A stretch of 64,000 nucleotides of DNA from assembly GCA_030141605.1 (NCBI GenBank), contig JAQGDQ010000721.1:1-64000 (forward strand). Reading direction: 5' to 3'. The stretch is from Tubiluchus corallicola. Lineage: Eukaryota > Priapulida > Priapulimorpha > Priapulimorphida > Tubiluchidae. The notes beneath the pieces are model-generated. The model saw nothing but the letters and a program-made list of their open reading frames with translations. It was not told the origin of the DNA and ran no database searches. The translations under genes were made by a program, and so were the position numbers. Below are positions 2,932 to 51,610 of the stretch, piece by piece (positions within the stretch are counted from its first letter, which is position 1; every line of letters starts with the position of its first letter).

Positions 2932-3371
2932 GTACTACTACATAACTGTTTTACGGGAGCCAATTCAACGGTTTCTCAGCGAGTATGCAAACGTAGTACG
3001 TGGTGCCACCTGGCCAAGGTCACTTCATAAATGTAATGGACGTCGTCCCACGCCCAACGAGATTCCAGTGTGCTGGAAAGGGTCTTCTTGGAAAGGAGTC
3101 TCCTTAGATGAGTTTCTAAACTGTGAATCAAATCTAGCCCGAAATCGACAAACGAGAATGCTCAGTGATTTGACTCTAGTGGGATGTTATAATAAATCTG
3201 CCATGTCCAAAAAAGACAGAGATATGATAATGTTACAGAGTGCTAACAACAGTCGAACAAGTCAAACAACAAAACAAGCTTGATATTCCGTTATATGAAT
3301 TTGCAAAACAGCTGTTTATGAAAAGATTTGATCAAATTAAAAGCATGTGCTTGGTGACAGGCAAACAGTAA
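2932..3371 (+). pseudogene. HS6ST exon 2 partial copy, internally deleted
   Basis: A second copy of the last exon of heparan sulfate 6-O-sulfotransferase, inverted relative to the intact gene at 48421-51610. It retains the upstream intron end (TTGTTAAAG) at the exon border, so it is a genomic duplication and not a retrocopy. It encodes the 3'-phosphate-binding motif region (LREPIQRFLSEY) and the VRGATW segment. After about 3244 it has lost 153 bases relative to the gene, at a CTAA microhomology, plus 2 more bases nearby; the frame shifts and stops at 3283. The C-terminal part remains readable in the original frame to TAA at 3369-3371. By eye, the first ~313 bases carry only 2 mismatches to the gene, whereas the 3' segment is roughly 18 percent diverged. 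No matching exon 1 is visible upstream, so this is very probably non-functional. Confidence 0.85.
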
Positions 3372-4109
3372 TATAATACTCAAAAATGTTTACAAAAAAG
3401 GCAAGCATTTGGCAACTGTCAGTAATTCTATAAAATTTTTAAATAAAAGTTATTCTCCAAACATAGATATTACTGAGCCTCTTCTTAATAAAATATTCTA
3501 ACGCCTGACATTGCCCTTTATTCTCCCTCCTTTTTCGATAATTTGAGTCGTTTTAGTTGTTTTGCCAGATTGCCAAATTTTTCAGTGAGAGGTCAGTAAC
3601 AACCCAGAGCTTTACAAGATCCAGAAGTTTCAATATCTGAAAGGGAATTTGATTGATGCAGTTTCTTAGACTATACAAGGATGCGCTGATAGTGCAAGGA
3701 TTTATCCTACCCTGATTTTCTCCATAAAGAAACGTTTTGGCAACAAGCAAATTATTTATGATCGACATTTAAAAGAACAGTACTTTGTAAAGCTTCTTTA
3801 CAATTATGCAAGTTTCTTGATAATATGGAGTCCCATTTTTGCAGTTTTGAAGCAGCTAGTCAAATATTTGATTTATGCATTTTGATACGATCTGTTGTCA
3901 AAGTTTCCGTGATCTGTTGTCAGTGCTCCACATATTAATTTTGATTTTCCAAAACCTGGTTCATCAAGGAGATGTTAGTAAAGTTACGGAAACACTTCGC
4001 CACCATGAAAGTGATTTTCGAGAAGTGTTGTACCCGCAGCCCAAGGCTCAGTCTCGCAGCATAGGAACCATGAGGGCCTGTTGGTAGCAGTAGAGTTTGC
4101 CCTGCTTTT
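3372..4109. other. No gene recognised
   Basis: A/T-rich flank of the HS6ST relic. Short frames on both strands have no recognisable features. It may include degraded 3' sequence from the duplicated gene, but I could not align it to the flank of the intact copy. Confidence 0.4.
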
Positions 4110-4640
4110 CTATATACCAATACACCATTTCCATTTCAAGCCATTGTTGAGCCACAGTCAAGTCAAGTCAAGCCAAATCAAACTGAGCATAGTCTAATCA
4201 TATTGAGCCATATCATAGGCATGTCAAGTTGAGCCATAGGTAAATCAAGATGAGTCATAGACAAGTCAAGTTAAGCCATAATCAAGTGAAAATAATGATT
4301 TTACAATCAGCTCGAAATGAAATGCAATCTTTCATCGTGATCTGCCTGTTTGTTTATTTGTTTGTTGCTAATCATTAGTTCACACACTCATGTTCCGGAA
4401 ATAAAAACCTTTAAGATAGATGTTTCAAATGAATGAATTTTAGACCTATAAAGATATAAAGTGAAAGTAAGTGTTGTAGTCTTGGAATAGCACATTCGGT
4501 AAAACTCGGAGCAACATCTACAGTTCAATCCAAAGATTGCTTTACTTAACAGAAAGTTAGAGCTTTGTTCTAATAACAAAAAAACCGATCAAGTTGTGCT
4601 GAATCATTAAAGTTTCATAAAACATAACCAAATATTAATT
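4110..4640 (+). repeat. Dispersed repeat A, copy 2
   Basis: Partner of 1790-2350 in the same orientation. The central part (about 4135-4290) is a degenerate array of words such as 'caagtcaagttgagccatag', longer than in copy 1. Followed by the shared TTTG-rich tract and 'attaaagtttcataaaa'. Confidence 0.5.
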
Positions 4641-5482
4641 AGGCTAATTTCATATCAAAAGTAATTGTCACATTTAATTGCAGATCATAAAAGCTATGTT
4701 ATAACAACTTAGTTCAACTCTGCCGCTATCATTTCGTTTCTAATATCGCTAACTAGTTTATTCTGGTTCCTGCAACCTTGGAGGCGCTCAGACTGAAATT
4801 TTACATAAGGTTAACCTTAAATCATTTATAACTATTAATTTGGGTCTTCCAACTGAAGTTATAAATTTTATGGCCACCTCTGTACAGTGACCATTTAACG
4901 CTTGCGATCTGATAATTTAATTTTGCCTTTTTTAAGTACTTATGTGCTAGTTTGAATGCGTTATATACATAATGGTTAAACACTCATAGAGTGAATGTAT
5001 AACTAGTGCATTGGGCATCGGGCTTAATTTGATAGTCATGCGCTAATCGGTGCTTTAATTATGCGTTTGGTTGTCTATCTGTGCATTGCCTAGTGTGACA
5101 TATTTAATTTGAAATGTGCTGAAATAACAAGTAATAAAGTGTAAAAAGAAGAGCACTGTACCGCTTTGAAGTTCGAGACAATTACGTTCACTTAGCTATT
5201 AGTGAAACTGGCCCCAATTGTCGTACGAGAGGTGTCCTAAGCTTTGTACCTGAATCTAGGACCAACTAATAATAATGCAGCACTCCCGGCATGTTCCTTA
5301 CGCCATTTGATCGTTGGAATCCATATGTCGAGCCACAGTCATTAACGTGCGAGCGTTGAATGCCAAATTCCGCTCGATCTGGACAAATTACGTTCAGTTC
5401 TCTGAGAAAAATAGGAAAAGAATTCAACGTGTTTACACCAAAAAATAATTTTGCCTTTTTTCTGACAGTTATTTACAAAAAA

Positions 5483-5646
5483 ATGGTGAAGCAAAAACCA
5501 AGGAAATATTTGATGGCAAGGTGTATAGTGTTTCTGTTGCCTATATTTTTAACAATTTTGCTGGCAAGAACAATGATTTTTTACCATCCAAGTGCAAAAC
5601 TTAGCTTTTCAAATCAAACTCGGACAAATAGAGTACTTTCAGTACG
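5483..5646 (+). CDS. Candidate first exon of a type II membrane protein
   Basis: An open stretch from ATG 5483 (good AAAATGG context; an in-frame ATG also lies at 5360) encodes a basic N-terminus (MVKQKPRK), a hydrophobic segment of about 20 residues (CIVFLLPIFLTILLA) and a short stem with an N-glycosylation site (NQT). It ends exactly at a splice-donor-like CG|GTAAAG, leaving phase 2. This is the layout of a Golgi glycosyltransferase or sulfotransferase first exon. No phase-compatible second exon was found. The NDST relic at 11469 begins in phase 0 and the CHST exon at 20666 in phase 1, so it joins neither directly. It could be an orphan exon, a relic, or chance. Confidence 0.3.
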
Positions 5647-5649
5647 GTA

Positions 5650-8039
5650 AAGTTTGGTGTAGCACTGTATTAAGTTAGTATGAATACTAACCTGGTCAGA
5701 CACTTGCATTCCAAGAAGCTTATATTCCCTTATTGACGAAGTTTCTAGGTACTACTTTTTATTCTTTAGCGGTTACTTTGTGTTAAATAAATAGTATATT
5801 CACTTCGTTTAAATAATTTATTTGTTTCCCAAATATTTGTAACAACCGCCATATTGCGATACCAGCGCCGCCTATATTTATATAATAGCAGTAATACAGC
5901 AATGTTCGGTAAATGTCTTTCGGAAAATAAGTAATATTTTTATGCCTTAATCAAACAACAATAAGCCTCATATAATTGTTGGTAAAAGGAAAAGTATTGC
6001 CTTAAGAGTATGGTGCGGAAAAAATTTACAGTCGTTTTGATTTCATCCACATGAGGTTCTGTTATGAATTTATTTTGAAATGAGAAATTAATTAATAAAG
6101 TATTCTGAATTAAATTAATTATAACAGATTAGATCTTGAAGGAAGATTATACCGTTCAACCATAATGACTCTCTCAGCTTGTACCTTGTGTACAGGTACA
6201 TTGAGTACAATGCGTAAAGGATCAGAGGTTGATAGATCATGAAGATTTGATATATTAAATAAAAATTCAGTAGTCATGTAACGACAGATGATCTCTGATA
6301 TTCAAAATAAATAGCAACATGTACGTAAGTACTATTGTGCTGGACATTATGAGTTTCAAAGTATTCGGAACCTGTTACTCTTTTACTCATGCTCATAAGT
6401 GAAGGAGTCTCTGAAAGTCCAATATTGCATCCATATTTGGAGTGCTTGATGACCTGGTAATTGCGTCTTGCTTTAGTGAGTTTCTATTTTGCTTCTATTT
6501 TGCTGAACAGTGACCCATACACCTCATCGACGCATCTCACCTCATATACTACAATATACTATACTACCTCAATAATTGCAGGAGGAAATAGAGCCTAACA
6601 AAAGCAAAATGAAGAGCTACACATTTTGCCTTGATTCTGATAATACACCACAGCACTTAGAAGGGCGTTAACTTATTAACTATGCAAAATGATGATAGGA
6701 ATATGATAAGTAATGAGTAATCATACTTATCAGTGCATCGTCTCCTTTCTTTTCCTGTTCTGTCCCTTAATGACAACAACTTCCAGTGAAGACCCAGAAA
6801 GAAGGAGAAATTATGAAAATACTTTCGAATTCTTTCTTGGGTATCTATCAGTGACTGAAAGTAAAATGATCATCACCATTTACAGTCGCTTTACCCTATC
6901 GTCGTATTCTTATGCTTATGTGCAATTTGAGAGAGCTTGTCGTTTTTTAATCGTCTGATAACGTTGTTATTTTCATGGCACTACTGCAGTTGCTTCGCTT
7001 TCCCTCAATTAAGTAATTAGAGTAGCATGTTGAACACCCGGCAAGCAGTCACACTTCATTGTCTGCCACCAGGTTGTTGTATCTGCATGATGTGTTTAAG
7101 TGAAGGAGTTATTGTTAGAAGGATAATAACTTTACTGCTCTAGATAGGTATGCTGAGCTTTTCACGAAAAACCTAGTATAATTCAATTTTTGGGCAAAAC
7201 TAAATTATTGATATAAGGGCACACTGAGTAACATATTGCATCTTAGCACCCTTTTAGGTGAGATATTAGCAAATAAAAAACCTAGTAACTCCATTTTTAG
7301 ATGGTATGCTAAACATAAAGTATGCTATTCAATAGTTTACATGTAGTGTAATAATATCTGTGACCTCCTAATCCCAGCAGTTTCGTCTTGTCCTGCATGG
7401 GATGAGATGTTAAGCATTATGTTTATTGGTAACTCTATCTCACCAATTGGTATCTCTATCGCACGGAGGAACCTAATAAATCCAGCTTTTTGAAAATAAG
7501 CAACATATAGTGGAGACCATTTTTCTAGTTGCAATCTAGAAAATCCATAATTTAAAACAAATTTTAAATATTAATATATTTCTTTTGCAGAATAAGACAA
7601 TACCTTTTAACATATAATTATTCCATGTTTTAAGGTAATCCTTTCCCAGTTTTTGGCAAGTGAAAACAGTTTTTCTCAAAATTAGCTGAAATTTGTTTGA
7701 TAAGTTTTTACCAGAAAATGGGAGCAGAAAACGGGAGTCTTGTTCTTTTAGATCTGCATTTTTCATAAGGCTGTGATGAAAAGTTAAGTTCGGGTTTACT
7801 GGAAAACATACACTATTTGCTGGGTTTGTCAACAGATGCGTTGCTTGCTGCTATGCACAAGTAAAGATGCTATTATACTGTGATGATGAGATAGCTTAGT
7901 ATGGGTCTTGAAAACTTTGTTTTCTAAATTTAAGGTGAAAATGAATTATCAAAATATGAGAACCAGTATTTTTCTTTGTGGCAACAACTTTGAACTGTCG
8001 TTGTATATTCTATATTACACGATTTAGTTCATTAGTCCA
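5650..8039. other. No gene recognised
   Basis: About 2.4 kb of A/T-rich sequence with short unremarkable frames on both strands. No repeat with another part of the window was noticed here. Confidence 0.4.
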
Positions 8040-8830
8040 CACGCTTTGAGACAATTAATTTGTGGTCGATTAATTGCGCGACTCCGAGAGCTTATTTTAG
8101 ATCGATAGGGCAATGATAATTTCCCACACGACCTTGAACCACGAAATACGCGTTGTGAAATAGATCTTTATCTCTCGAGTTATCAAGCTGGCTTCCGCAA
8201 CAAGCCTTTTCAATGTTAATACTCTAGGTTCATGAAGCAGATAGCGTCTTTACGAGAATGCACTTATGATTACTTCAGATTCAGCAAAGCAATTCAACAA
8301 AGCAGTAATAGTGATGATAACATTTATTGAACAATTACCAAAACAGTCAACAAAAGATTACGGTTCGTCAACTTTTACAAATATTTAACTTATGCGCTTA
8401 TGGGCGCTCACAACTAGAAGAGGTATATCGCAAATGATATACCGAGTAATATTCAAAGTACTAAACTGTTACGCTCAAACTTCTTGTACACAAAATGCAA
8501 GTTACTACAATTAGTGTGATCCGTTATCGAAACTAAGATAATCGTAAGATTGCTTAACTTGTGGCCAGGCCAATCTAACGACTATAATTGGCCAGATCCA
8601 CATTTCTAGTAGTATCTCTAAGCATCAGAGGTTTGATAGACAAACGACGTAGAATTCTTATCCAGGCTGAGCTGTAGAAATATCTCTTCTCCAAGAACGT
8701 CTCTCCGATAGACGTCGCAGTTCTCCTCCGCTCCTTGTGTTCAGCAACCCAATCATCAACAACCACCAAAATCCTCTCTGCACTCTCTTTTGAATCGAAG
8801 GTCACTTGACATGACATTTGTCAGTGACAT
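8040..8830 (+). repeat. Dispersed repeat B, copy 1
   Basis: Diverged relative of 16480-17420 in the same orientation. Shared landmarks are the 'attaattgc' block, the block around GGGCAATGATA...CACACGACC, the GCGTTGTGAAA block and a 'tctcgagttatcaagc' block. No open reading frame, LTR ends or terminal inverted repeats could be fixed. Confidence 0.4.
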
Positions 8831-10725
8831 GTTAAGAGCTACATGGCTGATCATCCAGATGGTGCCCATTGATTCTGATGGTACCTATTGATTCTGAGAG
8901 GACAGCCACTTATTGTATTTGCTCTGATGGCATATAACCACCGTCTTTAGGCTAATTATTAACTGAATGACGACAATCGTCCACCACGATTTTGGCTTAT
9001 AACAATAGCTCTTTTGACCGTTGGCAATTCTAATTCGAAAGTTTGAGCACTGTCATACCAGTGCCTATCTGGCTACTGTGGGATCATTTAAATTTGTTAA
9101 TACTAAACAGAAGCTGTTACCTAGAGCATCTCGTGTCACGGAAGCAGAATCTTACCACAGTTCAACAACGGTGGCTGGCCTTTATCTTTATTAAGACTCT
9201 GCTTCTCAGTATCCAGCAGGGTTGTCCAAATGGGCAAAATGTTAGGTGGTCACTGGACACACAAACATGCACATGAGCTGACAAGAGACGCTCTGGAACA
9301 AGAAATGAGAAAAATGCAGCTTTTGCAAAGGTGAAAAAATTGTAAAACTGGTTTTGCCATCTCTGCTAGAAGTGCCTGTATAGTTGTTGCATAGTAATTA
9401 ACATCGCGCCGGGATTTTCTGGTAGCAAAAAAGACGAAGACAAAGACATCATTTATTGACCATCGTTTATCTTAAATAAGAAAACCAGACCCCACAAACA
9501 CAATTTCACTCGTTACCTGGGTTTCGCTAGTTAGCTGGGCGTTAGCACCTACACCTCAGGAATGAGTTGCATAAAAATAAATACTGCACCTCCCATTTCA
9601 GATGTATTCAGTTGGGACGTAGCGCACACGTTCGAGAGCTCATGCATGAACACAGCGAAAAAAATTGAAACTTGAATTCTCAGCAAATTTTAACATTAAA
9701 ATTCTGCACAGGAATTGTTTTGACTGTTGTACTTCAATTTTCACTTATTCAAACACGTACAACAAGCTCATGGAATATTTGTGCTGTTAAGAATTAGGTT
9801 CAGTTGTGATGCCATCACTAATTGAGCTCACTACCGTTAGTGAAGGTCTTAAGAAATGCTGTGGCATTATTACAGATGTTGTGATGTATACCTTTTAGCA
9901 CACCAGTAAGGTAAGAACGCAACACACAAATAACAAATAACATGTAGGTTATATGCACTGGCTTTGGCAGCAGCTAGATCCAAACTCCAGAGTGCGTAGT
10001 TGGTTGCAGACTCTAGGCCACATAGATAGATAGCAAAGTAATGAAAATGATTTGTCTAATTGTGAAAAGTAAATGACATTTCTCATAGTTACTCAGTTTT
10101 TAATTTCAATTCAATATTATGCTAATGCAATAGTTAATATTATTTTTAATTATGTTTAGCATAACAACATCAGTGTCCAAACCCTGATGCTCTGTGGCTC
10201 CTTATCATTCAGGGGTGTATCTAGTGCATGAACCGTTGTACGAAGTCTGCAAAAAGGTACCATCTTAAATATGCAAGCATATAAAGTTGTGAATATTGAG
10301 TATCATATTATAAGCCTATATATTACACATATAACATCTTTTGTACATAACTTTCTTACATAACATACACTCGCACTAAAGTATGTTTATGTGTACACTG
10401 TACAAATACGGCATAACAAAACCACTAAAAAGCAAACATTCGTTAATTGTAGAAGCACTAGAATGTAACAGTGAAGTTTGTGGCCAACACTTCTTATTGA
10501 ATGATCTGCATAAACTTATTAGCCTTCGCTGACACTGGTGTCCTTTTTGCACGTGTCTAGTTTCGAAATTGAAAATTATTGTCATCAGTGTTACCAAGAA
10601 GTTTTCCGAAAAAGTCTCTGAAAATGAATTAAAACCACCAAGTGTTGAGTCATATCGTTTGACTCCAGCGTGGAACAGTTCGTTTGACTCAGCAGATCGA
10701 CTGGGCACTGGATCGACGAAAGTCT
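8831..10725. other. No gene recognised
   Basis: A/T-rich, with short open frames on both strands showing no motif. Nothing else supported. Confidence 0.4.
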
Positions 10726-11340
10726 CACAATGCCATTGGAGTTGGCCAAGTGTACGAGAGCTGCATTGTGGTCATTCCACCGAGTTAAGTAATCTTAACG
10801 CATTTGTAACTGAGAGTAACTCTGCATAACTGTAGTTCACATTGTATTAAGCACCTTAAGTGCAGCATACTGAATAACTGTTAAGTGAATTGCTTGAGTA
10901 TCTTTTTGGAGCTATACATTAGTTGTAAACGCCTACAAGCGTGTAAGGTCAAATCTTGTGCAGCTACCTAGATAGAAGTAAATTCGGTAAACCAATAAAG
11001 CTGATTCACTTTGAGTTCATGTATGCTTTAGAGTGTTCAAAGTTAAGCAACACTAAATCCGAGATACCAACTGGAGAGATTCGCATTGCATTAATTAACT
11101 GAAGCTCAATTGCGGGAGCGAAGCTCGATAGCTTGAGAGAAGAAGACCTTACTCACAACGCGAGGTCGAAGTGTCAGTCTTGAGGGAGAAAATTATTGCC
11201 CGATAGACTCATCTAAAGCCCTAGGAGCCGGTTGATGAATCACCTTGTAGCAATTAATTAAATAGAAAGCGAATCGATTAAATTATTATACAATCTATAT
11301 AGATAACAAATCACTTAAATACTATACGATCAGAAAATAA
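10726..11340 (-). repeat. Dispersed repeat B, inverted copy
   Basis: Reads as the reverse complement of the 16480-17420 family: landmarks include ACTCTGCATA, CACCTTAAGTGC, GTTAAGCAACA, CTCAATTGCGGGA, CTCACAACGCG, CTAGGAGCCGG and TAGCAATTAATT in the expected reversed order. It ends about 120 bases before the NDST relic. Confidence 0.5.
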
Positions 11341-12691: not shown

Positions 12692-12693
<2 letters not shown>

Positions 12694-18532: not shown

Positions 18533-21500
18533 ATGAATACAAATAGTAGAAAACGTATAGAAATGTTAACACACAAAATGTCTTTGAAATCTCTGTGGAT
18601 TAAGTGTGGCCTTTCCTTGAGCATTGTTTGCATATCAGTGGCAATACTAAAAATAAATAGCCAAATAAACGTCAAGTCGTCATATCTGAATCAGGACATT
18701 GGTGGTGAGTAGACCTACTTATTGCTTCATTTAAAACTCCTTCAGTACCGTAAAAGCTTGCTGCATTTTGCATTTGTTCATAAAAACTGCTCTCACTAAG
18801 AAACGATTACATTATATTTGATAATTTTTGTAAGTTTCTACTCCTCTCACAGTCGATTTTCACGCAATACGAAATGTACTTGCCATTGCTCTAATTATAT
18901 AATTACGAAATTTCCTTAAATTTATTTTTGATGAAAAAAATGAAAAACGCTTTCAGTAACTGAAGTGTTTCAACCTCAAAAATGTACAGTATCACTGATG
19001 TGAAATCGGTTAGTGCAGAAAACTTCAACTATCCGAACACAACAGTCTGATTCTCTTTGGCCTCAAGTCTACTGTATTCTTAAGGAAAAATTCCTGTTAA
19101 AAATGAGACGACTTTAATTTAATCTTGGCTGATCGGTAGGTTTTCCTGGAAATCTATACAGCAGACAGCTCTTTTGGCCTATAGCAAGCAAGTGGGTACG
19201 ATCGCGCAAGTGTACACCATATTATGGGCTACTTGATAGGCCAAGTTTTTTTCTTAATTAAGTAACTTATCAATGGTTAAAAAACTGCGTGATTGGATAG
19301 CCGAAATTCTGAATAGAACAGTACCTAATTTTAATCTAGTTATATCTGTGCTCATGATGTAGCAGAAAAGTCTTATCAGATCTATTTGGAGTGGTGCGGT
19401 CCTGAAGGGGTAAAATCTGGTAGCAACGCCAGCCCAGACTGAATCCATGGTAACTCATGTTGCCTTGCCACTAGCTACATATTGTTTATGATTAAATTTA
19501 TGTTAATGATTAAAATGCTCATGAAAAGATTAGATTTACATTAACATTATTAAAATGTAAATTATATCAATAATCAACGGGGCAACACACAAGATGTTAC
19601 AAACAGCGACAAAATTTGTGAAAATTCTAATTGAAATTCTAATTCTAATTGAAGCATTACATGTAACATCACGTTGAATCACAACATTTTTGGTAAATTA
19701 GCAGTGCTATTTATGTCTCTTGTAACATGTAACTGCATACCTACATATTTCCAAAAATCAATTACGATGTAAAACACTTGTAAATATTTCTAATAATTCT
19801 AATAATTAACAATCATTGCTAATATTTGTTAACATTTTACGCTCGTGTGGTATTATAATGTTTTTGTGAAACCATCACACTGCACAGGCAAAGGAGCTGT
19901 ATGCATTCACCGAATTTTCCAAAGTGAAAGCGCACGCATTATAATTTAGATAGGAAAGTTGTCCGATCAGTATTATGGCAGCACAAAATTTAGGAAATTT
20001 CAACCAGTTTATGACGACAAGTTAATAAGCAATATGGCAAGCCCCTGACAATTTGACAATAGACAATTGACTTTTAATACATTTTACCCAACCACATTTT
20101 AAATATGTTATGAATCATGAGTAAAATTTTGATTGAAAGGTTTACAGTATTGATTGAAAATTTTGATTGAAAGGTTTACATTTTGTGTGACTCTCGTCAG
20201 CGAAACAATTTATTAATAAGTGAATTAATGGTTTTCATGTAGGATAAAACTTGGCTGTGCAATACTTCATCAAGTGTTTTAGCTAAGCCCTGGAAAACAG
20301 AAATGGAATGAGGCCTACAATTCGTTAGTTCATCAGTGTTACGACAGAACTATTCAAAATATTCCTAAAAAAATCATTAATTCTAGAAAAAAATCATTTA
20401 TAAAAGTTATAGACGGATTTTCGCAAAATAACTTTATAATATGAACGAAATGACACAAATGAGAGAAACAGTAGTATCATGATTTACTTTAAAAAAATTG
20501 AATTAATCATCAGACCAAACTAAGTTGTTGGCGATATTTGATCTCACGACGGTTATCAGAATCTGCATGATTATGTGATATGTTTACACAAGTGATTGAT
20601 GCTTTTCAGATTTTGTGGTATTTCAATATTAGCCTGCATTGCAAATTTGATTCTGTTTTTTGCAGATTATAAGAACACTGACAGCCCAACAAAGCAATCT
20701 TTAAAGAGAGGCATTGAATTGGCCAAGGTGGAATATGTGACCAGAATCAAACATATTCGTCAATATTGCACAAAAAGAACGTTTAACAGCACAGCAGGCA
20801 GGCAGGCTGAAAATTATTTGACTTTAATATTTGTGGATCGTATGCACAGAGTGGTGTGGTGCAGCTCTCCGAAAGTTGGATGTTTGAACTGGCAAAGGTT
20901 AATTAAGAAAACTATACGTTCGCAGTTATCAACAAAAAGTCCGACAGCTCAGCCCCCAGATGTGAACAAATATTTTTACCGGATCTACGAAAATGAGCTT
21001 AAAGAAAAACTGGCAAATGTATTCGCTGATTATAAGAAGTTCTTCTTCGTTCGTGAACCGTTTGCAAGAATTCTGTCAGCTTGGCGAGATAAACTAACTG
21101 GCGACAGTGAAAAATACAATTCACTGAGCAAAGCTATTAGTGAACATTATGCCACATCCAACAAAAAAAGAACGTATTCTACTTTCCGTGAGTTTTTGCA
21201 ATATTTGGTTGATGACGAAAGGAACTTTCCAAATGGTAGCAACCTGAAATTATACAAAAAAGACGTACACTTTAATAGCCTCCTTGATACCTGTCACGTT
21301 TGCACTATACCTTACGATTTTGTTGGCAAATATGAAAACATCGAGGAAGAATCGCGTTTTGTGCTACAGTTGTTTTTTAACAATACTAGTGACTCTCTGT
21401 CTAAAAAGAAGCACAGCAAGCAGGTTGGTCGATCTGAAAGTGTGGCAAAATCATTTTACTCTAAAATACCTACTCTGTTAATAAAGCAAGTTTATAAGTT

Positions 21501-21618
21501 ATACGAGGATGAGTATGAAGCTTTCAATTACAGTTTTCCTCAATACTATTTTGCAAAAAAGCAGCTAATTCTGCCAGCAAAAACAAGACGTGGAAAGAAT
21601 AATACTGCACGTGATTGA
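18533..21618 (+). CDS. Carbohydrate sulfotransferase, CHST8-14/HNK-1ST family (two exons)
   Basis: Predicted Golgi type II enzyme transferring sulfate from PAPS to a glycan or glycosaminoglycan chain. Exon 1 is 18533-18704 and exon 2 is 20666-21618. The junction is supported by ATTGGTG|GTGAGT and TTTTTTGCAG|ATTATAAG, both phase 1, giving 374 residues, normal for the family. An in-frame TAA at 18485 precedes the first ATG. Residues 1-57 hold a short cytoplasmic tail and a signal anchor (CGLSLSIVCISVAILKI). The 5'-phosphosulfate loop SSPKVGCLNWQRL is near residues 124-136, the 3'-phosphate motif FVREPFARILSAWRDK near 185-200, followed by a CHVCTIPYDFVGKYENIEEE block that matches the family's paired cysteines and YDF(I/V)GK(Y/F)E signature. 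The conserved DxHW position reads DVHF. Substrate (chondroitin, dermatan, GalNAc or other) cannot be assigned. An alternative start inside exon 2 is described separately. Confidence 0.88.
18705..20665 (+). other. Intron of the CHST gene with an alternative start near its end
   Basis: A 1961-base GT-AG intron without recognised genes. Its last 67 bases are open: an ATG at 20599, preceded by an in-frame TGA at 20593, would encode MLFRFCGISILACIANLILFF directly continuous with exon 2. That is also a plausible signal anchor, so an unspliced transcript starting here could give an alternative N-terminus of 339 residues. Confidence 0.6.
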
Positions 21619-25659: not shown

Positions 25660-26527
25660 TTATAACAATAAAGTTGCGAGAGCAGCCAAGACCACGATGA
25701 ATGCACACAAATGTCTAGTTGGCATGGCTTCATTTTTAATGGCAAACAGTCTTGTTGGAGCACCAGTGCCGCCTTTTATACACATTGCAACAGCAAAAAC
25801 TTTGGTACCTGTAGAGGGCATTTTGTAAAATTTGCAACTTTCTCCAGGAGTGGAACGTTCTTGCACAGAAGCACTTTATGAACTGGATAAGTTTTTGATT
25901 GTCCGTAGTCATTAGAGTCCGTAGTCATTACGCCATAAAGCTTAATATTACGATTTTCAAGCAACCATTTAGCTGTATCAGCATGTAATCCAGGAAAGTG
26001 CATTTCTGACCACCTTTTTTCATTCCTAAGTACTTCTCCTCATCATGGAAGTACTGATGCCATCCTGTATTTAGCAAAAACAGAGCACCATCCGGGATTT
26101 GACCATGGCTAGTTTGCCACTCTTTCATGTCCAGCACTGTAGCTTGATAATCAGGATTTTCCTTCGCTTTCCCAGAAACCACACCTGGTCCAAAGGCATT
26201 TTCTGGCTTGATTTGTTCAATTGAATAACCATTTACAATATAATGAAAAGGTGCATCCATGTGTGTTCCTGTGTGTTCTGTAGTTTCAAAGTCATTTGCT
26301 TCAACGTAGACATTGTATGGTCCTGCAACACCTTTATGTGGTCGGCTGAGGTTGTAACGGGTCATTGCAGTAGGCCAGAAGGACATTTCAGCATTGAAAT
26401 ACTTGTGTGTTAAATCAATTGCTTCATCCTCCTCCATGTTTTTGGTTGATTTTTCTTCCTTTTTGAAAAGTGAAGGAATAACATTTGCATTCAGCAAACA
26501 AATGTACAGAAATAATTTTTGTGTCAT
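25660..26527 (-). CDS. Secreted cyclase-family (kynurenine formamidase-like) hydrolase, frameshifted
   Basis: Member of the cyclase family (PF04199: bacterial kynurenine formamidase, isatin hydrolase), metal-dependent amide hydrolases. The ATG at 26527 starts a hydrophobic, signal-peptide-like leader (MTQKLFLYICLLNANVIPS). The hallmark metal-binding motif HTGTHMDAPFH follows at about residues 86-96. Further family blocks are IPDGALFLLNTGW, MHFPGLHADTAKWLLENR, YGVMTTDSNDYGQSKTYPVH and FAVAMCIKGGTGAPTRLFAI. The product would be about 288 residues, intronless, of usual length. Two single-base frame changes split it: one near 26004 (CAGAAATG) and one near 25827 (ACAAAATG), each reading as one A too few in an A-run before ATG. 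All conserved blocks are intact, so sequencing or assembly error is as likely as real pseudogenisation. The C-terminus is a hydrophobic tail (LCAFIVVLAALATLLL), possibly a GPI-anchor signal. Animal substrate unknown. Confidence 0.85.
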
Positions 26528-26643
26528 TTCCTGAAAATCAGCAAAACAAAGAACATTGGATTGGCAATGAAATATTTTTACAAACTGGAGAAAAACTTGT
26601 TGGCACTACGGCTTGCATAGTAGTGTATAATTATTGCATATAA

Positions 26644-31933: not shown

Positions 31934-32612
31934 CAAGTAAATAAGTGCGGTTGTTGTGACTGTCAGCAAATAAGTGCGGTTGTTGTGACTGTCAGCAAAT
32001 AAGTGTGGTTGTTGTGACTGTCAGCAAATAAGTGCGGTTGTTGTGACTGTCAGCAAATAAGTGCGGTTGTTGTGACTGTCAGCAAATAAGTGTGGTTGTT
32101 GTGACTGTCAGCAAATAAGTGCGGTTGTTGTGACTGTCAGCAAATAAGTGTGGTTGTTGTGACTGTCAGCAAATAAGTGCAGTTGTTGTGACTGTCAGCA
32201 AATAAGTGCGGTTGTTGTGACTGTCAGCAAATGAGTGTTGTTGTTATGATTGTCAGCAAATAAGTGCAGTTGTTGTGATTGTCAGCAAATAAGTGCGGTT
32301 GTTGTGACTTTTCGTAAATAAGTGTGGTTGTTGCGACTGTCAGCAAATAAGTGCGGTTGTTGTGACTGTCAGCAAATAAGTGCGGTTGTTGTGATTTCAG
32401 CAAATAAGTGCGGTTGTTGTGACTGTCAGCAAATAAGTGAGGTTGTTGTGACTGTTAGCAAATAAGTGTGGTTGTTGTGACTGTCAGCAAATAAGTGCGG
32501 TTGTTGTGATTTCAGCAAATAAGTGCGGTTGTTGTGACTGTCAGTAAATAAGTGAGGTTGTTGTGATTTCAGCAAATAAGTGCAGTTGTCAGAAGAGAAG
32601 TGCGATTGTTAG
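31934..32612. repeat. 29-bp minisatellite, array 1
   Basis: About 23 tandem units of AGCAAATAAGTGCGGTTGTTG followed by TGACTGTC (29 bases). Variation is mostly C/T at one position (gtgCgg or gtgTgg). A shorter variant (GTGATTTCAGC) recurs four times, and the last units decay. Immediately adjoins the 3' end of the decayed ORF at 32641-35090. Confidence 0.95.
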
Positions 32613-42503: not shown

Positions 42504-44497
42504 GGGTTATAATTTGTCCATATAGAAAATCGCGGCGTGTTCTGTCTTGCTCGATTAGTTATCAAAGAATTTAAATGATTATCGGTATTTTGGAGTTTAA
42601 AGTTTCTCCTGTGCAGAAAGTGATACTAAGACGTATGCAATACTTATTGAGGCAATAATGAGAAATGGTTATTGCTTCACCCTTCTTTGTAGAAAAGATT
42701 TTGTCAATTTTAATGGAATGTTATAGCGAAAGCTATTATTAGTCTTGTCTGTATTTGCTCTGCTTTCTTTGTTAACTCTTTCCCAGGTGTAGAATGCAGG
42801 CTTTTGAAATTCAAGTGCGTAATCACTCTGTTTTATTTGCTTAACTCTTTCGCCGGTGGCATTTTCTAGATTACCCAGGTTAATTTATTGACACAAGATG
42901 ATTTTAACTCAATTTCGGAATTTTTCACGTATACGTATCGCGGCATCTTGGTTTTGAAAAGCTCTTTGTAGGAAAGCTTTTGAAGAATATTAAGTATTTG
43001 TGAAATCTCTCAAGTTGTTCAAAGTAAAGTGCTTTGATGAATCTAAGTTTACACAGTCAGATATTTCTTCTCGTCTCTTCCTTTGTGTTTTTAGGTTTGT
43101 TTGATTTATACATGAATTTTACGATGTGAGAAACTATTGTTAAGAGCGCAGAAAAATCCATTTAGACACGTTTAAAGTCAATATTCAACGTGAATTTGAA
43201 AATTTCTTCTGTCGTTCAAGTTAATAATGTTAATGAAATGGCTGTTGATGTCTACTACATCAGAATAGAAAGCTTGTCTTAACTACTTGTAATGAAAATA
43301 TTGGCAGGTTTAACGAAGAGTTCAATAATAAGGGTATCGAACCATCATGATTTTCAGCAAAAGTTTCCAAGAAAGAGCGAAAATAACTTCTCTTTGCAGG
43401 GTGCTGTTGAGCATGAGGAGTGGTACTGAATCACACTCCTTTGTACAAAAGCTTTTGATAATTTTACTGGATTGCAGCAGCCTATTGTTAATCCTGTCCG
43501 TAATTACTCTGTTGTAATTTCTTAACTCTTTCCCAGGTGTGGAATGCAACCTTTTGAAATTAAGTGTGTAATCACTCTGCTTTGTCTGCTTAACTCTTTC
43601 TCTCAGGTGTGGAAATTCAAGTGAGGAAGATCACACAGTCAATTTCTTCTAGGTTTACTTCACACTTGCCACACACACCTAAATTGGAAAAATAGAGGCT
43701 AATTAGGAAACAGGGAGTAGCTTGTATAATCTACTTGTGTGCCGATCAGTAAGGGAAAACGTTGAAGGTATATATGATAGCAATGGTATCGAATTTTTCT
43801 TGTAAACACAACGTCTTCAGGTTGGGAAAATGACTTCAGTAGAGTATTATAATAATCCTGAGATTTAGTAGGCTTCTCTTTGTGCTGAGTTTCAATGTGG
43901 ATGGTTCAAAATTTTCAAATTACTAATTGAATAATAAGTAAAACATCCACCTCACCAATGAAACGGCAACATGTAACTTACACCACATGACCCACATCGT
44001 GCCATCACAACTGCCATACCACACCAGCCTCACCATGCCATTCCCACGAAGCCAAACGCACGATATCATACCACATAATGCAGATGATGATAACAATTTT
44101 GATGACTGTGATGGTGCTGACAATGTCGATGATGGTGACATCTGACGAGCGACAATAACAACACAACAGCACAACAGTCAAACATTTTGCACAAATTTTA
44201 AGCTGTGTGCTATGACAAATGCTAGTACCTCCTTAAGGACCACAAGGCCTTACAAGGCCTATGATTTTTGCAATTGTATGAGCACAGACAAAGCTAAATA
44301 ATTATAAATTAGGCACCGTTCTATTCGGGAGAACATTAGCTATTCAATCACGGTATTTATTTAAGCATCTATGTGTGATTTAATTGGATCATTTCAAGAA
44401 TAACACGCCCTAACAATTCAGGCACTCCATGTTTGCCCTTTGAGTTGCTAAGTGTGGGTTACACTTGCGAGATTGTACAAACTACTTTGTTATGACC
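42504..44497. other. Repeat scraps, no gene
   Basis: Two related blocks around 42770-42860 and 43510-43625 share TTAACTCTTTCCCAGGTGT and TTTTGAAATT...GTGTAATCACTCTG. The block 42956-43080 (TTTGTGAAATCTCTCAAGTT ... TTTACACAGTCAG) also occurs at about 37680-37775. A CA-rich, compositionally simple segment at 43940-44170 produces an open minus-strand frame that I do not regard as coding. Confidence 0.45.
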
Positions 44498-44563
44498 TGC
44501 TTGCTACAGCCCGAGAACACAGATTTCTACTGCTTGCTGCAGCCCGAGAACACAGATTTCTAC
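44498..44563. repeat. 33-bp tandem duplication
   Basis: TGCTTGCTACAGCCCGAGAA with CACAGATTTCTAC is repeated once immediately after itself (44498-44530, 44531-44563) with one difference. The length keeps frame in an 87-codon plus-strand frame of no recognised identity. Confidence 0.9.
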
Positions 44564-45033
44564 AGCTATTACAGGGGAATTTCAGCCAATGACAAATTAA
44601 GGTTGGCCGGCACAAGCGCGCTGAGTGGTGGAAGAAAACAAAATATCTCTCCTAAAAATCGTAAAATTTCAACGTTTGAAAAAATTAAAGTGGAGTTTGC
44701 TCTATTTTTGAAAAAAAATTCTTTTTAATTAAAGTAAACAACAACAACCAAAATTTCCCGTTCTGGAGACGAAACAATAGAGGTAAACTGGAAGTTGGAA
44801 CAACATCTACTGATAGTATGTGGCTATGTTTTGCAAGGGAAGGAGACTGCCTGCCAGTTTCGTGGCGAACACCCAACCGGGCAATTTGTCGGGCACTCAC
44901 TGGGTGGCGCTGTACGTCAGCGCCTTGGGACGCTGAGAATACTTCGATTCGTAAGGCCTGGTGCCCACCTGCAGAACCAGAAGCTTTCTAAACCGAAAAT
45001 GCAGTAGCAATTGGACTTTCAACACCAATAAAA

Positions 45034-45545
45034 TGTATGTTTGTATAGAATATAAGTAAATATGTGCGGTTGCACAGAAAGTAAGTAAATATGTGCGGTT
45101 GCATAGAAAATAAGTAAATATGTGTGGTTGCATAGAATATAAGTAAATATGTTTGGTTGCATAGAAAATAAGTAAATATGTGCGGTTGCATAGAAAATAA
45201 GAAAATATATGAGGTTGCATAGAAAATAAGTAAATATGTGTGGTTGCATCGAAAATAAGAAAATATATGAGGTTGCATAGAAAATGAGTAAATATGTGTG
45301 GTTGCATCGAAAATAAGAAAATATATGAGGTTGCATAGAAAATGAGTAAATATGTGTGGTTGCATAGAAAATAAGTAAATATGTGTGGTTGTATAGAATA
45401 TAAGCAAATATGTGCAGTTGCATAGAAAATAAGTAAATATGTGTGGTTGTATAGAATATAAGTAAATATGTGCGGTTGTATAGAATATAAGTAAATATGT
45501 GCGGTTGTATAGAATATAAGTAAATTTGTGCAGTTGTCAGCAAAT
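45034..45545. repeat. 29-bp minisatellite, array 2
   Basis: About 18 tandem units of AAGTAAATATGTGCGGTTGC plus ATAGAAAAT (29 bases). Variants carry GTGTGG, ATGAGG, ATCGAAAAT and GTATAGAATAT. The AAATATGTGCGGTTG core matches AAATAAGTGCGGTTG of array 1, and the terminal unit at about 45530-45555 (GCAGTTGTCAGCAAATAA) is almost the array-1 unit, so both descend from one repeat. All three minus-strand frames are open through the array because the unit holds no stop codon on that strand. Confidence 0.95.
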
Positions 45546-45567
45546 AAATGAGGTTGTCTTTTCCATA

Positions 45568-46020
45568 GAAACAATTACGCCCCCAGTATGACCCGTCTTT
45601 AAATTGTGCCGCTCCAATCCCTGCAGCCTTGAAATACTGTAAAATTGCTTCACAGACATTGAGAGGCATTAAGAGACCCACTGGCAGGAGCTACATGTGA
45701 AATGTGAGTATCTTTTTGTCGAGACAGAAAGGAGTTATTTTACTCAGTAATTTGTTCAATGTAAAATGTGTCACCTTTTTAGCTTGAATTTGGTTTTGTC
45801 CTTTCGTCTATCAAAACAGAGTGCAATTATTGATTCACTGGTAACTTGACGTTGCAGACTTGTTCTCAGTTTGGATCTTTCTCTACAGATTTTGTGTCTG
45901 TCTATAACATGACCTGCATCACATTTTTGGATAATTCCAACATCTTTTAATGTGGTAGATGCTATAGCAGCAGCTGCAGCACTCTACCGGAAATGCCAAA
46001 TCCATCTGCTTATAATGCAA
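45568..46020 (-). pseudogene. Second, truncated copy of the uncharacterised ORF family
   Basis: Minus-strand remnants parallel those at 34600-35090: LKDVGIIQKCDAGHVIDR then HKICRERSKLRTSLQ, SIIALCFDRRKDKT, and LNVCEAILQYFKAAGIGA. The homology ends at about 45568, where the 29-bp minisatellite begins. The blocks that follow in the other copy (FIGPSSFTGAIRKALE and the C-terminal part) are missing. Frameshifts separate the pieces. Confidence 0.5.
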
Positions 46021-46515
46021 GTAATCATTGGTTAACAGCCAGAAGATATTATGATGTTTTAACAGTTTAGCTTACAGACTACATATCTTGATTGGTACGA
46101 AATTAAATAAAATTCAGCAAAAACAAACAAACCAGTATATTAGTAGTAACAGAACAGTCACTTTTAAGTAGCTGCCATTTTGTTACTGAATTCCACAAAC
46201 GCTAATGCGCTGTAGGTGTTGTACAAGCTCATGGGTATATCAGGAGTAAAGAGTGCACATACTCAGCTTTTTGTTTAACTTGTACCTAATGTCTTTCACG
46301 TGCAATGCCTCCAGTATTGAAAAATCAGGGCATCATGTTCTTCCATTGGGATTTCGTAATTGTTTGCTTCAAGTACTTGGCACCTATTTGTAATAGAACT
46401 TGCTGATTTCTCTTGAAAATAATTTTGAAAATTTAGCAAATTTGTAAGCTGATCTCGTGAATCTGAAACTGCTTCTATATAAGAAAATTATCATTAAACT
46501 AACGACGGAAATATA

Positions 46516-46656
46516 AATACTAATGCTTTACAAGACTTCTTTGTAAACGTAAGCCCCACATTATCAAGTAATATTGAACCTACAAATACTGATGCGAATT
46601 TTCTTCTTAAAGGAAATCACGAATTTGCTGCGCCAGACATCCCTATAGTTTTTTGA
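46516..46656 (+). mobile_element. Possible LINE fragment (segment before the reverse transcriptase)
   Basis: The frame reads ALQDFFVNVSPTLSSNI and continues to APDIPIVF before a stop. The FF(V/I)N(V/I)...L...I pattern is typical of the linker preceding the RT domain of CR1/Jockey-group LINEs. Very short; no flanking LINE sequence confirmed. Confidence 0.35.
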
Positions 46657-47440
46657 AAACAGAACAAATCTACATAATAAGCCTTTTTGCGTTTTCCTTG
46701 CACGTGTACCACAACAATGCGTCTTAACTACAACCGTCACATGACATGTGGGTAAAGCAATAGTGCCAGCAGCATCGGTTCACAATTTATAATTTTGCAT
46801 TAGTCATTTCAGTCTTTGCGAAGAGTGATTTATTAACAGGATCTTGCTTGACGACAGAAAGAATGAACTAGGTATGTTTCTAGCTAACTGCTAAAGCTGT
46901 CACCATTACAGTAGCTTGAGATTGCGATGTGATGTCAAGTGCATATGCATGGATAAAACCACTTTTTTATCATTTTTGAATCATTTGTCCCATTTGAGTG
47001 ACTTATGTCACATATTTTGTGCCAAGGCACATTTCAAGTGACTATTACATTTGTATGTCCAATTACGATGGTATCCATGTACGACAGCTGGATGACGTAT
47101 GTGACAACAGCTTGCATGACGTATGTCAAATTTGATGTTACGAACAAACTTCATTTCCTGACCGAAGAAAACTATTATAATTGTAGATGTACATCTGGAA
47201 TTACAACACAAATAAATATTTTTTTATTCACAATAAACTTACTTTCAGTATGGCCAATGAGAGAAAACACAAAAGATAGAAAAGTAAAAAAAACGAGAAC
47301 CGATGATAAAAGAATGTTCGATTTTTTCGATTCGTCAGGCAAACAATGATTTGGTTATAACTCTTTCATATGGAGCTTTACAAAGGTTGTCATTTTATCT
47401 GGATGAAAACAGCGATATTATAGTGATTATACAATAATAA
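46657..47440. other. No gene recognised
   Basis: Open plus-strand frame 47005-47349 (114 codons) without recognisable domain. Otherwise nothing. Confidence 0.35.
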
Positions 47441-47665
47441 TTATTGTTCCTTTTCTGCATCCCATCCAAGCTTTATTGGATTTTCTGGTAAACTCGCGAA
47501 ATGGACATTCCACACTAACAGAGGTTCAAAATCACATTCACCAATAGCTTCTTTAGCACTTCTTTGATAATTCATACCCACTTCTCTTCTGTTACAAGCT
47601 AATGTTTTGTTATCAGGTAAATTAACGTACAGTGTATACAAGTTGTTTACTGCGAAATAATACAT
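47441..47665 (-). CDS. Orphan exon-like reading frame, function unknown
   Basis: On the minus strand, after an acceptor-like TTATTTCGCAG, a frame of about 70 codons reads NNLYTLYVNLPDNKTLAC..., then FEPLLVWNVHFASLPENPIK and ends DAEKEQ before TAA. The composition is balanced and protein-like, with an N-glycosylation site (NKT) and two cysteines, as in the last exon of a secreted or Golgi protein. I do not recognise the family and found no partner exon. It lies about 0.75 kb downstream of the HS6ST stop on the same strand. Confidence 0.25.
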   Translation of the reverse strand: MYYFAVNNLYTLYVNLPDNKTLACNRREVGMNYQRSAKEAIGECDFEPLLVWNVHFASLPENPIKLGWDAEKEQ

Positions 47666-47699
47666 AATACTGCTAAATTATCTCAACAAATTATGGTTT

Positions 47700-48135
47700 G
47701 GGATATTCTCAATACACAAGATGGAGGGGTGAAATAAACTTAAAAAAGTTAAAAAAATTCTCAATCATTTCTGATTAATTAATTGTTAATTGAGATCCCT
47801 AATTAAAACACTTCTTCTTCTTTTTCTTTCACCTTGCTACATTTCTCAGCCCGTATTTATCGCGTCTTCAAACATACACACGTGCGCATGTGCAACCATG
47901 CGCCTACAATACTTATGATGTAATAACGCTAGCAAACTCACCTGCAAACCCCAGAGCCCAATGGTTTAAGAGCAAGACTCGCGCGCAACCGGTAACGATT
48001 TCGACCCGAATTTAAGGAAAAAAAATTTCAACCCTACATTTATATCAAGAAATTCTCATTATACAAGACGGAGGGCTATTCTCATTATACAAGATGGAGG
48101 GGTGAAGTAAACTTAAAAAAATAAAAAAATCCTCC
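47700..48135. repeat. Short repeated words around ATTCTCATTATACAAGATGG
   Basis: ATTCTCAATACACAAGATGG plus AGGGGTGAAATAAACTTAAA at about 47706 recurs as two partial copies at about 48053 and 48082 with AGGGGTGAAGTAAACTTAAA. A tRNA-like stretch (AGAGCCCAATGGTTTAAGAG with GATTTCGACCC) lies between them at about 47951-48012. This may be a short SINE-like unit present in more than one copy. Confidence 0.35.
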
Positions 48136-48420
48136 TGGGTATCAGGTATTCCCTGGGGTCCATAAATCACACAGTCCAGGAACATTAACCCTACGTATGT
48201 ATGTATGTGTATCATACCCGAGTATGCAAAGATTGAAGAAGATGCGTATTTAAAATTCCTGGTAATGCCGCGATAACGGGTCTCCTGCGATGGGCATTTC
48301 ACCAGACACATCCGCCCAAATTTTGCGGAAAACTGCACAAATAATCTCCAGAAAAAAATCGGTTTGTGCAACTGTTTCAGCACTTTAGGAAAATGGAAGG
48401 ATTGTACTTCGAAGTTCTTT

Positions 48421-51400
48421 TCAAATCTTATGTGTAGTTGTGTCCAAGCAATCAGTTTTAATTTGGTTAAACCTTTTCATAAACAGCTCTTTTGCAAAGT
48501 CATATAATTGAATATCAAGCTTGTTTTGTTGTTTGACTTGTTCTGTTTGCATGTTAGTCAGAGTTACGTTACCGGCAAATGTGGCGTTTGCTTCGACCTG
48601 ATGAAAAGCGTTTCTGAATCTTATATTAAATGTCTTTTCAAACAGACATTGTGACTTCAATTGTTCTTCTGCCAATCCAAAAAAAGCCAAGTTTTCAAGG
48701 TTTAATTTAGCACTCTGTAACATGATCATATCTCTGTCTTTTTTGGACATGGCAGATTTATTATAACATCCCACTAGAGTCAAATCACTGAGCATTCTCG
48801 TTTGTCGATTTCGGGCTAGATTTGATTCACAGTTTAGAAACTCATCTAAGGAGACTCCTTTCCAAGAAGACCCTTTCCAGCACACTGGAATCTCGTTGGG
48901 CGTGGGACGACGTCCATTACATTTATGAAGTGATCTTGGCCAGGTGGCACCACGTACTACGTTTGCATACTCGCTGAGAAACCGTTGAATTGGCTCCCGT
49001 AAAACAGTTATGTAGTAGTACCTTTAACAAGAATAAATTGAAGAAGTATTATTAATCATGGAATAATTTTTAAACAAAAATAAAAAGAAACTAATGGTAG
49101 AAACTGGACATGCTAGATTATTTATTGAGCTATAAGCTATAAGGGTAGATTAGTGAGCAATTAATGGCTGCCATAATTAATATTGTGTGTTTGAACTGGT
49201 GGTTGCAGTACTGGTACCTTGTAAGTCAAGGCGTTTGTCTCCACTTTTTCAAATTCCTTTCCTGCTCTAAATTTTGTTTTAAAAACTAATTAGCTATCTA
49301 ATTTTTTGTAATAATTTATCATACTTTTGATGATCATTGACAGTGCCCCACTTTTGTTCAAAAAAAGACGAATGACTTCATTGGAAGAAGAATGGGTGTT
49401 CAAGTGCCCAAGCATGAAAATTCGCGACCTTCAAAGTGTGTTTGCTAATTACACGAGGCACTTGTAGTTTTATGACTAAATCCTTCTAAAATTTTTCGCA
49501 AACATTGAAATAAGCCTAACTTCCTAGAAAGCTTGACCGTTTGCTTCAAGCACTGAACCACTTTTCATTGTATTTTAATCAGCACATTCTAATTATTTCT
49601 ACCCGCAGTGTTTCTACTGGAACACCCTGTACAAACAGAAAAACTGCCATGTCGAAGCGACCAGAAACAGCCGAATGGAGCCGTCTGTCTTCCAGCACTA
49701 TTTCATTCCGTCATAATCATTACATGGTCTGTTCAATAACATATAGACGTTTTTGTGGTGACGTTTTATATTAAAAGTAGTTTTTCTTGTAATACCTCTG
49801 AAATCCCACGGAATTATAAATCATTTTGGCGCCCTCCGAATTAAGGCCTGGATTTGCCCGGTTGTTCAACTTTGTATGTCCGCATTCTAAGAGTTTGTTT
49901 CTCTGTTTATAGCATCATTAAGATCTAGTCGCACACTGTCACGGACTGATTAGCCAATTTATGTCATCACTGTCACGAAGGGAGTACCTGTTTACAACTG
50001 TGGATTTCGATTTTAGTCGGTTGAACACTTTTCATTGCACCAGGGTTGTTGTGTTAGATAAATTAAATGAACTAGTACTGCATCAAAGCCTTAAAGGTGA
50101 AGAAAAGAGGCACCTGAAGTACGTTTCTGAAAAATCACATTAAAAATTGTGGAAACGATTTTTTGTTTGTTTTCATTTTAAATCTCCCTCAGTACTCTTC
50201 CGACAGCGCCATTACATGACGTCACCTACACAAATATATATCAGGCAATGCCAAATTATATTCCAAAAACTTTCCTTGCAAATCTATATTACTTAGCATT
50301 ACGCTTACCTGCTTTAAAGTCTTATGGAACAAGAAAAAAAATTAAAACGTTCGTGCGAATTGGTAATATGTTGCTGGGTTACCATACAGGGTGCGTCACT
50401 CACTAACCAAAAACATATTTTTAATCTTATTGACAAAATACAGTAATTTAAAATTTTACTATCTTACGAATGCTCTGATTATTTTTTCAAACTTTACACA
50501 TTGTTATCTAAACTTGTTTCAAACGACCTCCATTTAAACTAAAGGTCATTGCGGGAGTTTAAATTTAAAAGTTTTATACAGATTTACTGCTGGCGCAAAC
50601 ACTGCATGCAAAAGCAGTAAAAATGCGTAAGTAGTTTAAAATTCAAGACGAATTTTCTAAGCTTGGTGTAAGTGGAGGGTTTTCTTGTGCTTTAATATAG
50701 CTATAGGAAGTAGTGTTTTGTCGAAGTTGTTATTGTTTTCCAAAAGGTAACTTTAATTATGTTATTAATTATAAAATATTCCAATGAGTAGACGACTGTA
50801 CATTTCGTACTAAACATTTCGTACTTAGTAGTTTCTATCTCACGTGAAATGCGTCAGTCTTAAATATTCGAACAATAAAGTTTTTTAGCTGTCGATTTAT
50901 TACCAATATATCTAATATAATCCTGTAGTGAACTTTTCAGCTTGTGTAGGTATAGTCAATTCTTACTGTAAATGTTTTTGTTAATACTGAATATAATGTG
51001 TTGTGGTGAGAGTCCTAAATCATGTTTCTTAAACTGTCTGATCCAATCCTATAATATTCTGTTTAAACTAAAACTGCTTTAGAAATTGTAAAATTTGTTC
51101 TTACTTTCTCTTGCCAACAGATTTTCCCGTTTTTTTATTCAACACACGATCTACACATGGTAAAAGTTCTGTCCAGTCTGCATGAACACCACATGGCCAT
51201 CCGGTAGTAAACCGACTAAACAACCAGGTTCCTCTCTCAGAATTTGGACGATGACACTTACAGTACATAAGCCCTGTTCCTGTACTAATACTTTTACATC
51301 TGCATGGTTTGGGTATGTCAGTATTAACAACTAGATGGCGCCCAAAATTGCTACCTCCCGTTTTCTGGATGTGCAGAAACACAATCGTGTCGGAACCACT

Positions 51401-51610
51401 GAAATTAAAACTGAAGTTTGTCGCTGGCGGTCCCTGGTGGATATATGCAGGAAGATTCCCTGACAGCATTTGTAGGTTGGACTGTCGCTTTGATAATTCA
51501 TAATCATTGCTCACTTTTACCGTATCAGTGAAAATAGACAAAAAATACACGGTAAAACTTATAATGCCACAGATAATGCTGAAAAACACAAATCTGCAAA
51601 CTGTGTCCAT
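48421..51610 (-). CDS. Heparan sulfate 6-O-sulfotransferase (two exons)
   Basis: Golgi enzyme that adds sulfate from PAPS to O6 of glucosamine in heparan sulfate. Exon 1 is 51610-51105 and exon 2 is 49021-48421. The donor AGAAA|GTAAGA and acceptor TTGTTAAAG|GTACTAC agree in phase (phase 2), giving 368 residues from ATG 51610 to TGA 48423-48421; human HS6ST1 is about 410. Residues 6-27 form a signal anchor (FVFFSIICGIISFTVYFLSI). The 5'-phosphosulfate loop VFLHIQKTGGSNFGRHL is at about 77-93, the HADW block with the likely catalytic histidine at about 144-147, the 3'-phosphate motif VLREPIQRFLSEY at 175-187. C-terminal family blocks are NLARNRQTRMLSDLTLVGCY, LAFFGLAEEQ and LDIQLYDFAKELF. No disabling change was seen. 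Exon 2 has a damaged, inverted duplicate at 2932-3371. Confidence 0.93.
49022..51104 (-). other. Intron of HS6ST containing a repeat C copy
   Basis: A 2083-base GT-AG intron. From about 50160 to 50710 it holds an inverted copy of repeat C. No other coding signal is seen; short open frames at 49541 and 49961 have no motif. Confidence 0.75.
50160..50710 (-). repeat. Dispersed repeat C, inverted copy
   Basis: Reverse complement of 35330-36070. Matching landmarks are TTTAATCTTATTGACA, ATGCTCTGATTATTTTTTCA, TGTTATCTAAACTTGTTTCA and GAGGGTTTTCTTGTG. Lies within the HS6ST intron, so the insertion is removed by splicing. Confidence 0.65.

Follow-up and report, generated by a model that had tools for sequence, protein, structure and literature searches.

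Probable interlocus gene conversion from a heparan sulfate 6-O-sulfotransferase-like gene into a related pseudogene of Tubiluchus corallicola

In multigene families, gene-to-pseudogene conversion lets an intact copy overwrite part of a dead copy. Here we analyze the first 64,000 nucleotides of contig JAQGDQ010000721.1 of the priapulid Tubiluchus corallicola (assembly GCA_030141605.1, 343.5 Mb in 2344 contigs). This stretch, the window (G000:C1270:1-64000), carries a gene resembling heparan sulfate 6-O-sulfotransferase (HS6ST) and, about 45 kb away in inverted orientation, a defective copy of its second exon that we call the relic. Sequence comparison with other copies in the assembly indicates that part of the relic exon was very probably overwritten by the gene through interlocus (ectopic) gene conversion, an already known kind of event. 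A limited full-text literature search found no earlier report of gene conversion involving HS6ST.

Conversion tracts tabulated for Caenorhabditis elegans range from 12 to 2,958 bp (Katju and Bergthorsson, PMC3966223, Table 1), and the tract of about 500 bp considered here falls inside this range. The same review describes a conversion frequency that drops with distance over 1-8 kb, refers to a proposal that pairs on the same strand convert more often, and notes that adjacent copies convert in either orientation. As treated by Mansai et al. (PMC3924818), conversion is considered to take place mainly above 80% identity, and yeast and rodent work places the efficient minimum identical stretch at roughly 200 bp. 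Template switches at microhomologies are a known liability of repair synthesis (Hicks et al. 2010, as cited in PMC4052342), and deletions with microhomology are described for human meiotic breaks (PMC7615360).

Gene copies and the relic lineage

The window gene encodes a Sulfotransfer_2 protein (PF03567, E = 9.5e-18), and with a cutoff of E 0.001 it matches a single PDB sequence, HS6ST isoform 3 (5t03, 5t05 and 5t0a; E = 1.8e-66 for 5t03). It is a putative heparan sulfate 6-O-sulfotransferase gene of working appearance. A DNA search of the assembly with its exon 2 gives nine matches, including the gene itself and two pieces of the relic. The others are copies C1436 and C813 (93% identity each), C1850 (87%), C2337 (83%) and C461 (two matches, 81-82%), and a protein search adds the distant copies C380 (61%) and C2301 (52%). 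The window gene, C1436 and C813 each have two open exons and are three intact-looking copies that make up lineage A. Frameshifts or stops are present in C1850 and C2337, which together with the relic are an old pseudogene lineage, B; the C461 fragments are more distant.

Introns of the A copies are mostly 0.84-0.96 alike in 150-bp windows, with no constant nearest pair and with one divergent block in C1436. This long block, in which C1436 alone deviates (identity 0.47-0.48 at gene positions 50701-50850), was considered as a possible mosaic structure, taken to be local non-homology and left unused. Separately, about 109 bp at the exon 2 end of C1436 and C813 are absent from the gene (near 48430), and the gene's last codons and the sequence that follows them are altered.

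The relic DNA is collinear with C1850 from 1846 to 5621. Upstream, the two are 77.7% identical over 1846-2535 and 81.6% over 2597-3246, a segment that includes the patch. Downstream, identity is 93.9% over 3255-3419 (165 bp), 83.6% over 3422-3912, 72.7% over 4033-4914 and 84.9% over 4938-5621. In the assembly outside the relic itself, C1850 also gives the top match to the DNA just before the tract; C2337 matches the downstream part at 77% and 112 bp upstream. Because its flanks follow C1850 in this way, and because it has in common with the window gene only exon 2 and about 28 bp before it, the relic is an old B copy carrying a gene-type patch and no recent derivative of the gene. Its pseudogene status follows from the frame shift that its protein match undergoes at an internal deletion. 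Exon 1 is matched within the window only at the gene, and as the contig starts at position 1 the relic's own exon 1 could lie further out; its expected place is anchored by one 107-bp match. The level of 94% reached over 3255-3419, compared with 73-85% in the other flank pieces, may stem from selection that once acted on the exon or from a further conversion among copies of the pseudogene lineage.

The patch and its borders

From 2930 to 3246 (+) the relic differs from gene exon 2 (49023-48707, -) at two positions, in agreement with the near-identity reported in the earlier note. Both differences are silent: AGG in the relic is AGA in the gene at 3019, and ATA is ATC at 3229. Over the patch the relic matches the gene at 316 of 318 columns, C1850 at 276, C1436 at 297 and C813 at 293. 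The sites at which the gene and C1850 differ are informative (126 in all), and they divide the relic into three parts. Up to 2923 it is C1850-type at 41 of 55 such sites, gene-type at 13 and neither at 1. Between 2928 and 3285 it is gene-type at 44 of 46, with one site of neither type and one of C1850 type that lies in the scrambled junction of the deletion. From 3290 onward it is again C1850-type (21 of 25, with 2 gene-type and 2 neither). None of 100,000 shuffles equaled the 39 gene-type informative sites that stand in an unbroken row, the longest shuffled run being 17, and a second, GENECONV-like test of the identity run gave 0 of 20,000. With C1850-like flanks around a gene-like patch, the locus thus bears out the proposal, made when the two inverted copies were first noticed, of a recent conversion tract between them.

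On the 5' side, the relic last has a C1850 base differing from the gene at 2923, about 8 bases before the exon, and over 2791-2923 the relic matches the gene at 82 of 128 aligned sites. The switch therefore lies between 2923 and 2928, that is, within about 5 bp. Three other alignment settings leave the borders unchanged, except that one moves the last upstream C1850-type site to 2922.

The 3' border involves the deletion, in which a short scrambled junction replaces part of the donor-equivalent sequence (Table 1). In both the gene and C1850, CTAA borders the lost stretch on each side, and the deletion is not shared by the gene, C1436, C813, C1850 or C2337. Past it, the relic is identical to the gene at all 34 positions of 3255-3288, with breaks in identity at 3289-3290, and then over 3286-3371 it matches the gene at 63 of 81 aligned sites and C1850 at 83 of 86. 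The difference of about 18% that the earlier note had assigned to the whole 3' remnant is thus an average of two unlike pieces, and we have dropped its identity boundary at the deletion. The states that the gene and relic have in common at 3259 and 3275 are absent from C1436, C813, C1850 and C2337, and no match of the C461 fragments reaches either site. Because the gene and relic agree here against the other four copies, one tract spanning the deletion is the simplest reading, with the deletion then inside the tract; its extension past the deletion depends on these two sites. The next candidate, 3285, is private to C1850 among the listed copies and therefore does not fix the border, so that 3275 is the last position at which gene and relic agree against the rest. 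We place the 3' border probably at 3275-3290, which would give a donor tract of about 503-522 bp. Conversion of the 5' part of the exon is accordingly upheld as originally suggested, with a 3' limit that probably lies beyond the deletion instead of at it.

Direction of transfer and competing explanations

Trees support the change of ancestry along the relic. In approximately unbiased (AU) tests made on two set trees, the tree that joins the relic to C1850 is rejected in the tract (p = 3.8e-126), and the tree that joins the relic to the gene is rejected in the flanks (p = 1.2e-76; 4.3e-05 upstream alone and 1.6e-06 downstream alone). Lineage-diagnostic sites are those at which all three A copies agree with one another and differ from both C1850 and C2337. 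Upstream the relic has the B state at 18 of 22 of them, with 3 A-type and 1 neither; all 22 in columns 250-571 are A-type; and downstream it has the B state at 9 of 11, the other 2 being neither. Columns 784-814 contain none.

Direction was counted on the 44 sites in columns 250-571, before the deletion, at which C1436 and C813 agree against C1850. Both the gene and the relic have the sisters' base at 34 of these. Because such sites cannot arise from a relic-to-gene transfer, A-lineage sequence entered a B-lineage locus, with the relic as recipient. Among the A copies the gene is clearly the closest to the patch (316/318), and it is itself mostly A-type, with some B-type sites that cluster in the tract and past the deletion.

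At fourfold degenerate sites the relic and gene differ at 0 of 46 positions in the tract, compared with 12 of 40 for the gene and C1850 and 5 of 41 for the gene and C1436. The conversion is consequently recent relative to the family, and no calendar date can be derived from it. In the tract tree the relic branch is practically zero and the changes are placed on the gene side. This is straightforward at 3019, where the relic retains the base of both sisters, and less clear at 3229, which has three states (A in the relic and C1436, C in the gene and C813, T in B). An earlier homogenization of exon 2 between A and B was also considered and has no support, fourfold divergence between the gene and C1850 being 11/44 in exon 1 and 14/61 in exon 2.

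Interlocus conversion from gene to relic would proceed as follows. A break in relic exon 2 would have been repaired by copying the inverted gene 45 kb off, at a site that already held homologous sequence, since the C1850 flanks and the 3' end of the exon are collinear with the relic. Copying would not have left the stretch where the gene and C1850 are about 88% alike: one end would fall at the splice acceptor, and the other most likely within the exon, 21-35 bp beyond the scar of the deletion. Repair synthesis without crossover, in a single event extending past the deletion, could produce this outcome. The deletion would then be either a later microhomology deletion or a slip between the CTAA repeats during that synthesis, and the two are not separable here.

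Several observations weigh against this account. Free trees of the flanks pair C1850 with C2337 and not with the relic, at moderate support (86.8/83); C1850 therefore stands for the relic lineage as a near relative and is not the relic's exact former partner. The exon of the gene itself is not clearly of A type over its whole length, because at 9 of the 44 direction sites both gene and relic have the C1850 base, and at 3019 the gene has the C1850 base against G in the relic, C1436 and C813. Past the deletion, columns 784-814 contain 5 sites where the sisters agree against C1850, and at 4 of these the gene sides with C1850; 3259 and 3275 alone tie the relic to the gene there, and passage in the reverse direction could have occurred. 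Finally, the basis is a single assembly, in which a local error is possible.

The columns past the deletion also speak for a mixed history, in which the gene-to-relic tract ended at or before the deletion and 3255-3288 passed separately from relic to gene. The states at 3259 and 3275 could have originated in the relic, as this history needs. C380, however, has the gene's residue at codons 160, 161, 164 and 178, so that C1436 and C813 may be the derived copies and no sequence need have entered the gene, and one tract requires fewer events. We consider the mixed history unlikely.

An assembly artefact, with part of the gene, or of the gene's other allele, misplaced into the relic locus, would suit a patch so short and with only two silent differences, as in another allele. 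Such a misplacement must be reconciled with joins at which the gene and C1850 have only 6 bp in common on the 5' side and at most about 14 bp on the 3' side; joins of 6-14 bp are short for ordinary graph misjoins by assemblers. The patch region also contains the deletion, which has no counterpart in the five copies listed for it above, and we judge an artefact very improbable.

A recent partial duplication of the gene exon can yield a near-identical exon with unlike flanks, as PMC3966223 warns, but here the relic flanks and the 3' end of the exon are homologous in order to C1850, which points to an exon overwritten in place; that homology, the informative sites and the AU trees speak against this explanation, which we reject and give almost no credence. 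An old duplication with uneven decay, in which selection kept the 5' part of the exon, draws on the fact that, in this family, similarity is somewhat higher in coding exons than in introns. It is rejected, with about as little credence, on AU trees and silent sites, since selection cannot hold fourfold sites identical or replace C1850 by the gene as nearest relative.

Apart from the gene-to-relic conversion, sequence may have moved the other way at an earlier time. In exon 2 there are 19 sites at which the gene departs from both other A copies and matches C1850, compared with 2 such sites for C1436 and 1 for C813; the corresponding counts in exon 1 are 3, 3 and 4. Seven of the 19 fall within 16 bp (gene 48884-48869, -) and give Trp49 and Ser52 of exon 2. 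The residues at these two positions are Tyr and Asp in C1436, C813 and 5t03, Tyr and Glu in C2301, and Phe and Asp in C380. Because the gene and B share this derived-looking state, the pattern, which was found after looking, suggests that an older patch passed from B to the gene. At other sites among the 19, for example in codon 178, it is C1436 and C813 that look derived. A two-way exchange, in which a pseudogene-lineage patch of at least 16 bp (48884-48869) entered the gene before the recent transfer from gene to relic, is a tentative proposal that we favor somewhat less than its absence, and the segment around 3255-3288 may be a second patch of this kind. If the exchange did take place, then dead copies would act as a reservoir that alters the catalytic domain of a working sulfotransferase.

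Neighboring features and comparison with known systems

Table 1. Coordinates in the window of the gene, the relic and the proposed tracts.
Feature	Position	Strand	Basis or remark
HS6ST-like gene, exon 2 (putative donor copy)	48424..49023	-	200 codons then stop; open frame; PF03567, E 9.5e-18; 5t03
HS6ST-like gene, exon 1	51104..51610	-	open frame of 169 codons; ends near GTAAG donor-like site
Probable converted tract in relic	2928..3275 minimal; 2924-3289 maximal; 2928-3238 firmest	+	informative sites; AU test
Probable donor tract in gene	48523..49025 minimal; 48509-49030 maximal	-	site-by-site comparison with C1850
Scrambled junction, 8 bases replacing 163 donor bases (gene 48706-48544)	3247..3254	+	alignment
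Relic upstream flank	1846..2923	+	collinear with C1850 (1846-2535 and 2597 onward)
3' end of relic exon 2, unconverted, with the DNA after it, C1850-like	3290..3419	+	3255-3419 93.9% identical to C1850
Relic downstream flank	3422..5621	+	collinear with C1850 and C2337

Between the two HS6ST copies lies a second, different sulfotransferase, a 340-residue open frame at 20596-21618 (+) with a Sulfotransfer_2 domain that covers profile positions 3-252 of 252 (E = 1.9e-37). An open frame at 25928-26605 (-) matches PF04199 (putative cyclase, E = 2.8e-26). Two minisatellites with 29-bp units, at 31939-32589 and 45041-45536, are about 12 kb apart and 65% alike over some 510 columns. Two further stretches, 60892-63258 (-) and 53083-56582 (+), contain open frames of a Pao-type retrotransposon (Peptidase_A17, integrase zinc-binding domain) and, at 55836-56582 (+), of a reverse-transcriptase element; 53083-53622 has a weak match to PF25298.

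The relic differs from the usual gene-to-pseudogene class in that a deletion lies within the recipient's tract or at its border and the recipient's frame remains broken. The locus is an unusually clean natural case, because the recipient's lineage survives on both sides of the tract and the donor lineage, direction and borders can consequently be read directly. It is also a warning against dating a duplication by a near-identical exon, since the relic flanks are far more diverged than the patch.

The CTAA-flanked deletion and the scrambled junction in the tract region resemble mutagenic repair synthesis as attributed to Hicks et al. (2010) in PMC4052342. A link to the same event is not established, and a later ordinary deletion fits equally well. 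Unlike the Caenorhabditis cases described in PMC3966223, the pair here is inverted, 45 kb apart and 87.8% alike (gene versus C1850). Because of this identity, and because the longest identical run between the gene and C1850 is 39 bp, located inside the stretch now deleted from the relic, the pair is at the weak end of expectation and not outside it. The likeness to the interlocus conversions described in that review lies in a near-identity tract set in diverged flanks, in copies that share one contig, and in a transfer into one of them.

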